NCBI GenBank assembly: GCA_030428615.1
Contig: JAUIDN010000017.1
Span: forward strand, 1 to 64,000
Source: Alphaproteobacteria bacterium
Lineage (GTDB): Bacteria > Pseudomonadota > Alphaproteobacteria > Sphingomonadales > Emcibacteraceae
Length of the DNA: 64,000 nucleotides
Direction of reading: 5' to 3'
Shown: positions 40,734 through 46,436 of the stretch, piece after piece
How positions within the stretch are numbered: position 1 is the first letter of the stretch
How the letters are laid out: every line of letters starts with the position of its first letter
Translations under genes and position numbers: made by a program
The notes under the pieces: generated by a model
Told to the model about the DNA's origin: nothing
Databases searched by the model: none
Seen by the model: the letters and a program-made list of their open reading frames with translations, nothing else

Positions 40734-42233
40734 TCAAGCCATTTGTTTTATGCGCTTTAGCACCCGCGGGATCAGCTTTGGTAGATCTTCGGAAATGAGG
40801 CCAGCACCAAATTCCAGCGCACATTCACCGTGAATCCAAACGGAGGCACAGGCCGCATCAAAAGAATCCATTTTTTGGGCAAGCAACCCGCATATCATTC
40901 CCGCCAACACGTCACCGGACCCCGCAGTTGCAAGTGTCGCTGGCGCATTATCAGAAATTGCGACCCTCCCATCAGGCGCGGCGACCACGGTATCCGCTCC
41001 CTTATATATAACAATGGCACCTGACAACTTTGCTGCATTTCGGGCCGCTGTAATTTTATCAAGCTTCATTAAGTACGGGAAGATTCGGGCAAATTCACCT
41101 GCATGCGGAGTAAGAACACACTTCCCCTTTTTGCGGGCATTAATGGCTTCAAATAACTCAAGCGGTCCATCCTCAAAAACACTTAATGCATCCGCATCAA
41201 GCACGGCATTTTTACCCGCATTCAAAATATTCAGCACCGCTTCCCTGGTATCCTGATTGATCCCTGCCGCCGGTCCTATACACCAGCTATTCAGTCTTTG
41301 ATCCTGCAGATCCGAAACCAATTGATCACGCCGCCTGATCATCACCGCCGTAAGATGCGAAGCGTGAGTCTGAAGCGCATCTTGCGGGCTGCTGATACTG
41401 AGGAGTCCCGCACCAACACGCAATGCCGCAACCGCCGCGAGCCTACTTGCGCCCGTGTGTATCATATCACCGCTAACGACTACCGCATGACCACGATCAT
41501 ATTTGTGACTATCGCTTTCAGGAAACGGCATAGAATTTCGCCAGTTCACCGCCCTGTTAAGATATATATCCGGTTCCACCTGCTCTATCACACGATCTGA
41601 AATCCCGATATCCGCGACAATAACATTACCACAACATCTCTTGCCCGGATAAAGCAAATGAGCGGGCTTCTGCCGGCAAAAAGTAACCGTTCTGTCCGCC
41701 TTGAAAGCAATTCCCAAAACTTCACCGGTATCACCTTTTATCCCGCTGGGAATATCCACTGCAACTCTGTATGCGTCTGCTCCATTCGCTTTTTCGATTA
41801 CGTCTTTGACATTTCCCGATATTTCCTTGGAGAGACCAGTACCGAAAATGGCATCGACTATCAAATCCTGATGATCTATAAGGTCGGGATCAAACGGTTT
41901 CGTCTGACCGTCCCATAATGTTGCCATATGATAAGCATCGCCCTGAAGTTTATCAATTTCACCTAAAAGTGCGACTTCAACCTGCCAGCCATATTCTTTT
42001 AAGTGACGCGCAATAACAAAACCATCCCCGCCATTATTACCCGGCCCACAGAGTATGAGCGCATTTGTCCCCTGGAAATTTGCAGTAATTTCACGAACAA
42101 CACTTAAGCCCGCCTCTTCCATAAGATCGGCGCCGCTTTTCCCGCGTTTCTTTAATTCGGCGATCGTAATCTGGTCCGCCGCCGCCATCTGCGCGACGGA
42201 TAAAACGCTATTCTTGGTGTCCCTATTATTCAT
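40734..42233 (-). CDS. nnr: Bifunctional NAD(P)H-hydrate epimerase / ADP-dependent dehydratase
   Basis: N-term LILCGPGNNGGDGFVIARHL, C-term LTPHAGEFARI, YKGADTVVAAPDGR, ATAGSGDVLAGMICGLLAQ. Confidence 0.93.
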   Translation of the reverse strand: MNNRDTKNSVLSVAQMAAADQITIAELKKRGKSGADLMEEAGLSVVREITANFQGTNALILCGPGNNGGDGFVIARHLKEYGWQVEVALLGEIDKLQGDAYHMATLWDGQTKPFDPDLIDHQDLIVDAIFGTGLSKEISGNVKDVIEKANGADAYRVAVDIPSGIKGDTGEVLGIAFKADRTVTFCRQKPAHLLYPGKRCCGNVIVADIGISDRVIEQVEPDIYLNRAVNWRNSMPFPESDSHKYDRGHAVVVSGDMIHTGASRLAAVAALRVGAGLLSISSPQDALQTHASHLTAVMIRRRDQLVSDLQDQRLNSWCIGPAAGINQDTREAVLNILNAGKNAVLDADALSVFEDGPLELFEAINARKKGKCVLTPHAGEFARIFPYLMKLDKITAARNAAKLSGAIVIYKGADTVVAAPDGRVAISDNAPATLATAGSGDVLAGMICGLLAQKMDSFDAACASVWIHGECALEFGAGLISEDLPKLIPRVLKRIKQMA

Positions 42234-42328
42234 AATGTATCATCTGTTATGCGCTTTTATTATAACTTTAATTACGCTTTATTATAATTATCAATAATTT
42301 TAGTGGATCATGCAGGGGATGTATATGA

Positions 42329-42362
42329 GAAAAATGGGGCGAGTGACCGGATTTGAACCGGC
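42329..42362. repeat. 34-bp direct repeat, distal copy: tRNA-His 3' fragment (putative att site)
   Basis: GAAAAATGGGGCGAGTGACCGGATTTGAACCGGC, identical to 45728-45761; reverse complement contains the tRNA-His T-arm, acceptor 3' strand and CCA. Confidence 0.95.
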
Positions 42363-42448
42363 CATACTAACCCATCCATATTAAACGGCACCGATTTGGT
42401 TGGAGCGAAGCGAAAGATTTATTTTGAGCACCACTTTTACAAAATTAT

Positions 42449-42964
42449 TTATTTGTTCTTTATCATTTCAGAGGCAACTTCCCTAATTGCCTCTATGTAA
42501 CTCACATAACCTGTACAACGGCATAAATTCGACCCAACATATCCCTCAATTAAATTGTCAAGCTGTTCTTTGGTTATCGGCTTTTTTCTGATTTGATCCA
42601 GCATCGCCTCTGCAGCCATTAAGAAACCCGGCGCGCAATAACCGCATTGAAAAGAAAAATGCTCTAAAAAAGCCTTTTGCAAAGCCGCCAACTTTTGTTC
42701 TGTACCCAAGCTTTCAACCGTATAAACGTTAAAACCACTTAATTCAAACAACCTCGTTAGACAAGACAGCGTTGTTCCTAATGAATTACTATCCGGGGCG
42801 CGGGTCGCGACCGTACAAGATCTGCACACACCAATCCCACAACTAAATTTCGTTCCAGTTAAATTTTGGTGCTCATGAAGATAATCTATTAAAGTCATAT
42901 CACCATCAGATGCTTCAACTTTAACCACCTGATCATTTATCTTAAATTCGATTACGTCAGTCAC
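42449..42964 (-). CDS. (2Fe-2S)-binding small subunit of xanthine dehydrogenase-family hydroxylase (isoquinoline 1-oxidoreductase alpha-like)
   Basis: FSCGIGVCRSCTV and CGYCAPGFLMAAEAML...CRCTGYVSYIEAIR; 171 aa. Confidence 0.92.
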   Translation of the reverse strand: MTDVIEFKINDQVVKVEASDGDMTLIDYLHEHQNLTGTKFSCGIGVCRSCTVATRAPDSNSLGTTLSCLTRLFELSGFNVYTVESLGTEQKLAALQKAFLEHFSFQCGYCAPGFLMAAEAMLDQIRKKPITKEQLDNLIEGYVGSNLCRCTGYVSYIEAIREVASEMIKNK

Positions 42965-45663
42965 GATAGAGCCTCTTTTATATCATCTTCTGTTATAGGT
43001 AATTTAGAAAACCTGTGTCCGGACGTAGCGGCCGATAATGCATTTAAAATAGCTGGAGCGATGGGACACAATACCGCTTCCGCTATTCCTCTCGCACTTT
43101 CCTCTCCTTCCGGTGCTTCGAGTACAATCAAATTCTGTTTTTTTGGAATGTCACTTAAGCCTGGGATACGGTACTGATCTAAATTCCATGTACCATTCCC
43201 TGGTCCGTCATTAGTATTCAGGCAATCTTCGAAAAAGACATAACCAATTGACATGGCAACCCCACCTTCAGATTGTCCTTTAACAATCTCTGGGCATAAT
43301 TGCTTACCTGCACTCAATACTGAAATACAATGTTCTATCTGCACCTGACGAGTTTTTGGATTAACACTTACGGCAATTAACGCACCACAAGGCGCAAACC
43401 TACTACGCTTATAGCGGTCCGCTTTGCGCGGTGGATAAGTAATATTACTCCTTAAAATCGGCGTTAGGTCCGTTTTTCTATTTCCCATTGCAACATAATC
43501 CAATGGCAAATTTACCTCATAATCGGTGAATTTATAATCCGCTCTTGTAAATTCTGATACAAAGGATGCATGAACACTCGCAATATTGGGAAGTCTCTCT
43601 TCAAAAATTGTTTTTACGATTACACTCCAACTCAAATCTTCGTAATCTTTCAGCGTTAATTTACCATCGCGCCATACTATTTCATTATAATCAGGTTGTG
43701 TTTGCCAAATCTTTGCTGCCGCAGGCAAAATAGTCTGTAATAAAAGGGCCAAACCAGCCTGCTCAACCACATGAAATTGATGAAATGCTGCCAAACATGC
43801 GGATGAGGAACCTGAATCATGCGATACATATTTTGAATTTTCATCATCGTCAGCCCAACCAAACTTTGTGAGAGCACGCGTAACAATATTTGATATTTCC
43901 CGGTACGACGTCGTTAAATCCAGCTGGTCAAAAAATGCAACTTCACCCATATTGATATCCGAAGCATTTCTTCCCAAATATTTTGCGGGTGCCAATCCAA
44001 GCGCTGTTGCTGCACCATTCCCCATATCAATATAGGGAGTATGAACTACTATCTGACCATTTTTTTTAATTTCAACACCACCATACATACCGTCACCTTC
44101 AGTCCCGTATGCACGATTTGTCAAAGCAAGTCCTACGCCATAGTTTAAACCATCTTCTTCAAATATTTTTTGCTTAGCGAGCCTATTTTGCCAAAGCGGT
44201 TGTTTTTCAAGCTCATCCAAAATGGATGTTAGCTGCAACTCCTGATGAACGGGTGCACCCGTAATGGTCTTACTATTTTTATCAAGTAAATTTCGGCGTC
44301 TGATTTCGAATGGATCAATTTTTAAATCTATTGCTGCTTCATCAAGTAAGGTTTCAATGGCCATAAATGCTTGTGGTCCGCCAAACCCGCGTTGCGAACC
44401 ACCAATCAAATCCGGTGTATCCACCGCTTTGGCATAGGAAATCGCCTTACTAATATCATAACTGTTGCTCGAACTTATGGCAGAAAGTTGCGCCACATAG
44501 GGGCTAAGATTTCGGCGTCCACCGCCGTTCATAATAAATTCGCTTTTCAAGGCTTTAATGATACCATCGTTATCAAGGGCTATTTGCTCCTTAAAGTTGG
44601 TTTCGTGACGCTTAAGACCAACCTGAAACTGCTCATATCTGTCATGAACCCAGCGCAATGGCCCATCTGCATATGCTGCACATAAACCCAAATATTTAGG
44701 AAAATATGAATCATCACGCCCTCCGAAACCACCACCAGGGTAGCAGGCCATAAGATCAACATGTGATAATTTAAAAGAACAGTTTTCATGCCCAAATATA
44801 TCTGCAATTTTCCACATGTCACCAGCAGGCGATTGTGTTCCAAGGACGAGTCTCAATTCCCCATCATCTTTATTGAACCACGCTAAGCCTGATTCTGGCT
44901 CCATAAATACGGGATCCGTCGTTTGACTTTTAAACTCTCTTTCGAAGAGGTTCCAGTCACTCTCATCAATAGCTTTTTCTATATTATCAGCAATCACCGG
45001 ATACAGATTATCATAGTCGTCGTTATTGTTAACGTAATCAAATCCGCTTTCGTCATCGCGGATGTAGGCGGAAGACGGGCTATACATCTTGGGATCCGGT
45101 CTTTTAACCACTTTACCATACTCAATAACCTGTTGGTTGAATTGCAGTATGATTTTGGCCTTACGATATACATCGAAATTTTCAAATATTAGCATGGCAA
45201 TCGGTTGGCCGAAATAATCTGCAGTATTACCAAGTTTTACAAAAAACGGTTTAATCATCCCGCCCGCAAGATCAATATTATCACGCGCAATTACTTCTGA
45301 ATCAATTACAACCATCGGACTCAATTCCGGCGGCAAGACAGATAAATCATAGCTTGTAATTACCTGATTATTGCGATCTGCCCGGATTGGATAAAGATAT
45401 CTTTCAGTATTCGGCCAGCCGTCAATGTCACGGGCGCGATAATCCCGCGCGAAAATTTTTTTTCCCAAAACTTTTGCCATTCCGTCAATACGCCAGTTGG
45501 CTTTACCGGGGATGGGAGCCCACGCCGGATGGGTGCTATCGCGGGAATTTTCTGATGCTGAGAGAATGTTGACAGACAATCCCTTAAAACTAAGGGTTAC
45601 AACGGTACCACAGGCCAACGTTTTTATAAAGTTTCGCCGATTTATATTTAAATCACTTTCCAT
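42961..45663 (-). CDS. Molybdopterin-binding large subunit of xanthine dehydrogenase-family hydroxylase (isoquinoline 1-oxidoreductase beta-like), Tat-type N-terminus
   Basis: INRRNFIKTLACGTVVTLSF Tat-like signal; GGGFGGRDDS; GGSQRGFGGPQAF; C-terminal ARGIAEAVLCPIAPAILNALSAATG-like region with the conserved Glu; 900 aa. Confidence 0.9.
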   Translation of the reverse strand: MESDLNINRRNFIKTLACGTVVTLSFKGLSVNILSASENSRDSTHPAWAPIPGKANWRIDGMAKVLGKKIFARDYRARDIDGWPNTERYLYPIRADRNNQVITSYDLSVLPPELSPMVVIDSEVIARDNIDLAGGMIKPFFVKLGNTADYFGQPIAMLIFENFDVYRKAKIILQFNQQVIEYGKVVKRPDPKMYSPSSAYIRDDESGFDYVNNNDDYDNLYPVIADNIEKAIDESDWNLFEREFKSQTTDPVFMEPESGLAWFNKDDGELRLVLGTQSPAGDMWKIADIFGHENCSFKLSHVDLMACYPGGGFGGRDDSYFPKYLGLCAAYADGPLRWVHDRYEQFQVGLKRHETNFKEQIALDNDGIIKALKSEFIMNGGGRRNLSPYVAQLSAISSSNSYDISKAISYAKAVDTPDLIGGSQRGFGGPQAFMAIETLLDEAAIDLKIDPFEIRRRNLLDKNSKTITGAPVHQELQLTSILDELEKQPLWQNRLAKQKIFEEDGLNYGVGLALTNRAYGTEGDGMYGGVEIKKNGQIVVHTPYIDMGNGAATALGLAPAKYLGRNASDINMGEVAFFDQLDLTTSYREISNIVTRALTKFGWADDDENSKYVSHDSGSSSACLAAFHQFHVVEQAGLALLLQTILPAAAKIWQTQPDYNEIVWRDGKLTLKDYEDLSWSVIVKTIFEERLPNIASVHASFVSEFTRADYKFTDYEVNLPLDYVAMGNRKTDLTPILRSNITYPPRKADRYKRSRFAPCGALIAVSVNPKTRQVQIEHCISVLSAGKQLCPEIVKGQSEGGVAMSIGYVFFEDCLNTNDGPGNGTWNLDQYRIPGLSDIPKKQNLIVLEAPEGEESARGIAEAVLCPIAPAILNALSAATSGHRFSKLPITEDDIKEALS

Positions 45664-45727
45664 TTTTTCTCATCCCCATTTTTCGAAATTCAACATACTC
45701 GGAGAGTTCTTAAATTTCGCTTAAATT

Positions 45728-45761
45728 GAAAAATGGGGCGAGTGACCGGATTTGAACCGGC
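45728..45761. repeat. 34-bp direct repeat, proximal copy overlapping tRNA-His 3' end
   Basis: Identical to 42329-42362. Confidence 0.95.
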
Positions 45762-45811
45762 GACATCCAGAATCACAATCTGGCGCTCTAACCTACTGAG
45801 CTACACCCGCC
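45734..45811 (-). tRNA. tRNA-His (GTG) with encoded G-1 and CCA
   Basis: Reverse complement GGCGGGTGTAGCTCAGTAGGTTAGAGCGCCAGATTGTGATTCTGGATGTCGCCGGTTCAAATCCGGTCACTCGCCCCA; loop TTGTGAT; G-1:C73. Confidence 0.97.
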
Positions 45812-45840
45812 ACAAGAAAGACTTTCTTGAAAGTGAAGTC

Positions 45841-45869
45841 CTTTTAAGGATTCAATCGAATGGCGTCAA
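45841..45869 (-). promoter_or_regulatory. Candidate promoter for tRNA-His (and possibly the downstream island operon)
   Basis: Minus strand TTGACG (45869-45864), 17-nt spacer, TAAAAG (45846-45841). Confidence 0.5.
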
Positions 45870-45928
45870 GTAGGATAATGACTATTTTTGTTTTGTTCAA
45901 TCGATAGCTATCCAATGATCGTTTTTTT

Positions 45929-45957
45929 AATCACTGCCTATTTTATAGGCAATGATT
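45929..45957. promoter_or_regulatory. 29-bp inverted repeat upstream of glnB (candidate activator/enhancer site)
   Basis: AATCA-C-TGCCTAT-TTT-ATAGGCA-A-TGATT; only the central C/A position breaks symmetry. Confidence 0.5.
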
Positions 45958-46036
45958 GATTTAAAATTAGCCATTCAGCATATCCAAAATTCTCCCACCG
46001 CACAAAAAAACGCTAAATACGGCCATTTGCCCAATT

Positions 46037-46052
46037 TGGCATGGAACATGCT
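46037..46052 (+). promoter_or_regulatory. Candidate sigma54 (RpoN) promoter for glnB-glnA
   Basis: TGGCATGGAACATGCT vs consensus TGGCAYRNNNNYTGCW; GG and GC elements correctly spaced; 45 nt before the glnB ATG. Confidence 0.6.
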
Positions 46053-46076
46053 AATAAAGGGGAAACGAAAATATAA

Positions 46077-46436
<360 letters not shown>

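Follow-up and report, generated by a model that had tools for sequence, protein, structure and literature searches.

A molybdenum hydroxylase gene pair between two copies of a tRNA-His 3' end: a probable tRNA islet without its own integrase

A 3.4-kb segment in the genome of an alphaproteobacterium from the Emcibacteraceae (G000) is very probably an islet that was placed at the 3' end of a tRNA-His gene by site-specific recombination. The combination of an intact tRNA with a displaced copy of its 3' end is the hallmark of integrase-mediated insertion at tRNA genes. This reading, put forward in the original prediction, is supported by a perfect direct repeat, the canonical orientation of its two copies, the occurrence of relatives without the gene pair at the site, and the ancestral-like character of the outer flank. 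On these features, the islet is most plausibly a cis-mobilizable-type element, flanked by att sites and inserted by a recombinase, but lacking an integrase of its own.

The repeat pair, the target tRNA and the cargo

Within the window (the whole 64-kb stretch of DNA analysed), the sequence GAAAAATGGGGCGAGTGACCGGATTTGAACCGGC occurs twice, at 42329-42362 and at 45728-45761, and the two copies differ by 0 mismatches; the count expected by chance for a 34-bp repeat, as estimated from shuffled sequence, is 0.00. A third copy is absent from the window at up to three mismatches, and the 23-nt core of the repeat has, at up to two mismatches, no site beyond these two in the whole 3.39-Mb assembly. In each copy, 28 nt correspond to the tRNA (T-arm, 3' acceptor strand, and CCA) and 6 nt to its 3' flank (TTTTTC). 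The edges of the repeat are sharp: the in-register alignment contains 34 identical positions, followed by background similarity outside both ends. The copies are separated by 3,365 bp, and the unit from repeat to repeat spans 3,399 bp.

The proximal copy (45728..45761), the putative tRNA-side att, corresponds to the 3' end and flank of the presumed target gene, an intact tRNA-His(gtg) on the minus strand (45734..45810; ARAGORN; 70 bits with the Rfam tRNA model). The distal copy (42329..42362), the putative distal att, is an orphan tRNA-His 3' fragment. ARAGORN reports one tRNA-His(gtg) only, and a search of 42000-46100 with Rfam gives no further tRNA even at a cut-off of E=1. Together with the alignment, these results bear out the predicted distinction between an orphan left copy and a right copy that ends an intact gene, and the coordinates, orientation and gene calls given for the bracketed 3.4 kb are all correct. 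The islet is thus oriented in the way typical of tRNA-integrated islands: an intact tRNA closes one end, and the opposite end carries a direct repeat of that tRNA's 3' terminus.

The cargo consists of two genes on the minus strand. The first (42961..45663) encodes the molybdopterin-binding subunit, a 900-aa member of the xanthine dehydrogenase / IorB-like family with a Tat-signal-like sequence (NRRNFIK), and the second (42449..42964) encodes a [2Fe-2S] subunit (171 aa). Membership in the xanthine dehydrogenase family of molybdenum hydroxylases is indicated by the Pfam domains MoCoBD_1/MoCoBD_2 and a GGGFGGR motif, read from the translation, in the large subunit, and by Fer2 and Fer2_2 in the small one. 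The ORFs share 4 bp, and the space between the repeats contains no further plausible gene; approximately 64-70 bp separate the tRNA end from the first gene and approximately 86 bp the last gene from the distal copy. Pfam and the ORF list therefore agree with the earlier description of two overlapping genes for a two-subunit enzyme as the sole content of the segment. The products fit no named NCBIfam equivalog (xanthine dehydrogenase, CO dehydrogenase, PaoABC), scoring far under the cut-offs, and their nearest solved structures belong to several enzymes (quinoline 2-oxidoreductase, aldehyde oxidoreductase, and 4-hydroxybenzoyl-CoA reductase). The GC3 of the large-subunit gene is the lowest among the 38 genes of the window. 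As an orthologue from the same genus (in G004) has an equally low GC3, though it lies outside any tRNA site, composition tells little about the time at which the islet arrived, and its value as proof of a recent arrival is weakened.

A long hairpin is present at the inner end of the islet (45666..45740, minus strand), where CCCCATTTTTC, comprising the tRNA end and flank, pairs with GAAAAATGGGG inside the islet. The arm within the islet is an inverted 11-bp copy located 44 nt inside the inner edge, and the structure covers the stretch just ahead of the molybdopterin-binding gene. Its folding energy is -24 to -28.5 kcal/mol (z -4.4 for RNA, and -3.9 and -3.1 for the two DNA strands), and a fold of this stability is reached by about 2% of random windows. 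The hairpin is absent in the relatives. It may represent a terminator-like or translation-masking structure, a part of a recombinase site, or a product of chance.

The site and the gene pair in related genomes

The usual gene order in the genus is glnA-glnB, tRNA-His, a variable interval, nnr, tRNA-Leu, tig, clpP, and clpX. The comparison of nnr-to-glnB intervals that had been proposed in search of an empty site yielded nine sites from the same genus, though not the same species, in which glnB adjoins a single tRNA-His and the gene pair is absent. Among 55 order-level genomes containing the tRNA-His 3' end, two copies occur in G000 only, and no tRNA-His 3' fragment above background was found downstream of tRNA-His in the relatives.

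The interval between tRNA-His and nnr carries a gene for a lipoprotein with a beta-lactamase fold in G001, G006, and G008, the same type of gene plus a 173-aa ORF in G013, an ORF of 181-187 aa in G007 and G011, and, over 4 kb, a serine hydrolase, a membrane protein, and a beta-lactamase-fold gene in G009. In G005, the contig stops before tRNA-His, and nnr is preceded by the two genes that G013 also has; nnr is absent from G002, and the contigs of G003 and G004 end ~170-210 nt past tRNA-His. None of these genus relatives has the molybdenum pair between tRNA-His and nnr. As the pair is missing from this site in the relatives and found elsewhere in G004, and as the contents of the interval differ, these comparisons mark the pair as an accessory trait of the genus and the interval as a variable spot. 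The initial view of an otherwise housekeeping neighbourhood is consequently half right, since the gene content from tRNA-His to nnr varies across the genus. The beta-lactamase-fold gene lies upstream of nnr in six relatives and is missing in G000; this counts against the insertion reading in that an extra event, a loss, must be assumed.

An entry at the tRNA gene implies that the original 3' flank of tRNA-His should now lie outside the distal copy. The start of this outer flank (42234..42328) resembles the tRNA-His 3' flank of the relatives (TATACAT): for the first 18 nt past CCA, resemblance to ten genus relatives gave p 0.006 against random window sequence and 0.008 against shuffles, and TATACA(T) is found at equal distance in G001, G006, and G008. 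The inner flank does not resemble the relatives' flank in the same tests (p 0.25 and 0.61). The test draws on 12 informative nt, with the signal confined to the first 18 nt and a 60-nt alignment uninformative; this short signal gives the flank evidence moderate weight. With moderate confidence, the outer flank of the distal copy can be taken to be what lay downstream in the target site before the insertion, and rejoining the sequence at the repeat would restore the ancestral flank, likewise with moderate strength.

Only one further true orthologue of the pair was found among 14 same-genus genomes. It belongs to G004, shares 62% identity, and occupies an unrelated locus on a separate contig, with a TetR regulator on one side, a GDSL lipase on the other, and no tRNA. 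That the pair was inherited vertically at the tRNA-His site, which had been named as grounds for abandoning the insertion, is therefore rejected: the pair is absent from that site in the relatives, and the only genus orthologue sits elsewhere. In the tree, the sequences from G000 and G004 cluster with full support, with Burkholderia adjacent. The closest homologues found beyond the genus are encoded on Burkholderia plasmids (45%), in three alphaproteobacteria (G269, G358, and G314; 38-43% over the full length), and on a Salipiger plasmid (38%); plasmid homologues with 30-46% identity come from Burkholderia, Salipiger, Rhizobium, Methylocella, and Tistrella. No tRNA lies within 5-6 kb of the plasmid homologues at the two loci opened. 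The pair was not found on viral contigs, and phage records yielded partial matches of ~21-25% identity only.

In all five outside loci opened (L160-L164), an additional gene, whose product has two CxxCH haem motifs, comes after that for the small subunit; neither of two examples scanned has a Pfam match. This cytochrome-like gene is missing beside the pair in G000 and G004 and occurs nowhere in the 14 genus genomes, while the same query does recover relatives in the five outside loci. Its absence indicates that the electron acceptor in G000 and G004 must differ.

The proposed insertion and its agent

Under this reading, recombination between the chromosomal tRNA gene and a donor bearing a tRNA-His 3' end would have rebuilt the intact tRNA towards glnB and left the displaced 3' end as an orphan towards nnr. 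The enzyme class behind the insertion is most likely a tyrosine integrase; class and order of events are both inferred. A serine enzyme may also have acted, given the three serine recombinases of 546-552 aa encoded in G000 and the use of such an enzyme by the ssrA islands of Dehalococcoides (PMC3146451). The three genes are located at C17:5801, C39:5015, and C25:77508, two of them at 6-9 kb downstream of a tRNA gene (tRNA-Met and tRNA-Val).

The segment itself contains two cargo genes and no integrase, and none of the 11 Phage_integrase and 3 Resolvase matches in the genome falls on this contig, in line with the predicted lack of any integrase or mobility gene. An integrase with a tRNA-His att was found neither in G000 nor beside tRNA-His in the relatives. 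The islet could therefore have lost its recombinase by decay from a larger integrase-bearing element, as a CIME-type remnant, or could have depended on an integrase supplied in trans.

The first of these routes, in which a larger tRNA-His island was deleted down to two useful genes and is now fixed and immobile, is somewhat probable. It accords with the variability of the site within the genus, with the little room left between genes and repeats, where an integrase would normally sit, and with the usual description of CIMEs as decayed elements (PMC5704250). However, deletions from two sides would have had to halt just before both att copies, which are still 100% identical.

The second route, by which a minimal unit was delivered as such and its att sites were recombined in trans by a phage or island integrase, is possible but rather unlikely. 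The tight fit of the genes between the att copies and the perfect repeats suit such a unit, and 15 ssrA islands of Dehalococcoides likewise have no integration module (PMC3146451). A potential source of the enzyme is illustrated by L165, a viral contig of 17 kb in which a tRNA-His 3' fragment is identical at 27/28 positions to the tRNA part of the repeat and a complete tRNA is absent; a 465-aa tyrosine integrase lies ~160 bp from the fragment and adjoins lysozyme and terminase genes. The scan of viral contigs returned 0 matches to the exact 28 nt and 1 match, this contig, to a degenerate version. The arrangement (L165:1247-2834) is attP-like and belongs to an uncultured phage. The position of the fragment beside a tyrosine integrase suggests that phages targeting this tRNA-His end probably exist, and it also speaks for the insertion reading as a whole. 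Against a minimal unit, neither a second copy nor a helper was found in the genome, a transfer gene is lacking, and a search of 61 related genomes, run without a positive control, gave no counterpart of the viral integrase.

Other islands in G000 were surveyed in the regions downstream of 31 tRNAs, ~18 kb each where contigs allowed. A tRNA-Arg(ccg) island (C1:51420-129264) has its 3' fragment 78 kb off and an integrase beside the tRNA; in a tRNA-Phe island (C25:45341-91560), the fragment is 46 kb off and the integrase is at the far end; in a tRNA-Leu(caa) island (C32:41575-57470), a 17-nt fragment lies 16 kb off with integrases between. These islands have the same anatomy as the islet and thereby favour the insertion reading. 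A second tRNA-Phe 3' fragment, at C12:1641 in the region C12:1-1700, adjoins another integrase. The repeats at tRNA-Arg and tRNA-Phe begin in the anticodon loop and the tRNA-His repeat at the T-arm, so the integrases of these two islands are not obvious helpers.

A bolder version of delivery in trans, an integron-cassette-like minimal unit moved between tRNA sites by resident phage or island integrases, with the hairpin aiding recombination or coupling transcription of tRNA-His and cargo, is improbable. Insertion could also be dispensed with if the left copy stemmed from a duplicated and since decayed tRNA-His, and ordinary recombination had brought in the genes. Although tRNA genes can duplicate, this explanation is very improbable: the remaining 49 nt of the tRNA are untraceable beside the left copy, yet its 34 nt are perfect, and no relative has a second copy. 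The decayed gene, which the original prediction had set against its own reading, is rejected, as Rfam and the in-register alignment show no tRNA around the left copy, tRNA-like sequence stops after 28 nt, and the outer flank looks ancestral. Least credible of all is an assembly artefact fusing two loci at a short common sequence: the assembly does comprise 41 contigs, but the 125 bp shared by the ends of C12 and C24 suggest a k-mer far above 34 bp, for which the repeat would not be misleading, and nnr, tRNA-Leu, trigger factor, and glnB-glnA are ordered as in the relatives. The shared 125 bp contain a tRNA-Met and look like an assembly fork at a repeat.

Relation to known mobile elements

The insertion of the islet at the tRNA-His 3' end by site-specific recombination would make it a very small, clean tRNA islet with a clear cargo, in which an operon-sized metabolic trait lies between two att copies without a mobility gene. 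Such units are missed by island finders that rely on integrases. If its ends still recombine, the islet would constitute a compact test object for the movement of cargo on borrowed integrases.

The kind of event is already known. Elements of this type are named CIMEs and treated mostly as decayed (PMC5704250); like them, the islet has neither integration nor transfer genes and is flanked by att-like repeats where a tRNA ends. Unlike them, it is solitary rather than in tandem with an ICE or IME. Its 100% identical repeats are putative attL and attR sites. The tRNA-Arg(ccg) and tRNA-Phe islands of the same genome share the intact tRNA and the distal 3' fragment with the islet but are 46-78 kb in size, carry integrases, and have repeats that start from the anticodon loop. 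In the additive fGI of Ca. Methylopumilus (PMC10872708), tRNA 3'-end repeats also surround metabolic cargo; there, the last 20 bp of tRNA-Lys recur, whereas the islet comprises one unit only. The ssrA islands of Dehalococcoides without integration modules (PMC3146451) provide the closest precedent, with an intact RNA gene, a short 3' repeat, no integrase, and redox enzyme cargo. They differ in the target (tmRNA rather than tRNA-His), in the repeat (20 bp versus 34 bp), and in forming a tandem array with integrase-bearing neighbours, where the islet is a single unit.
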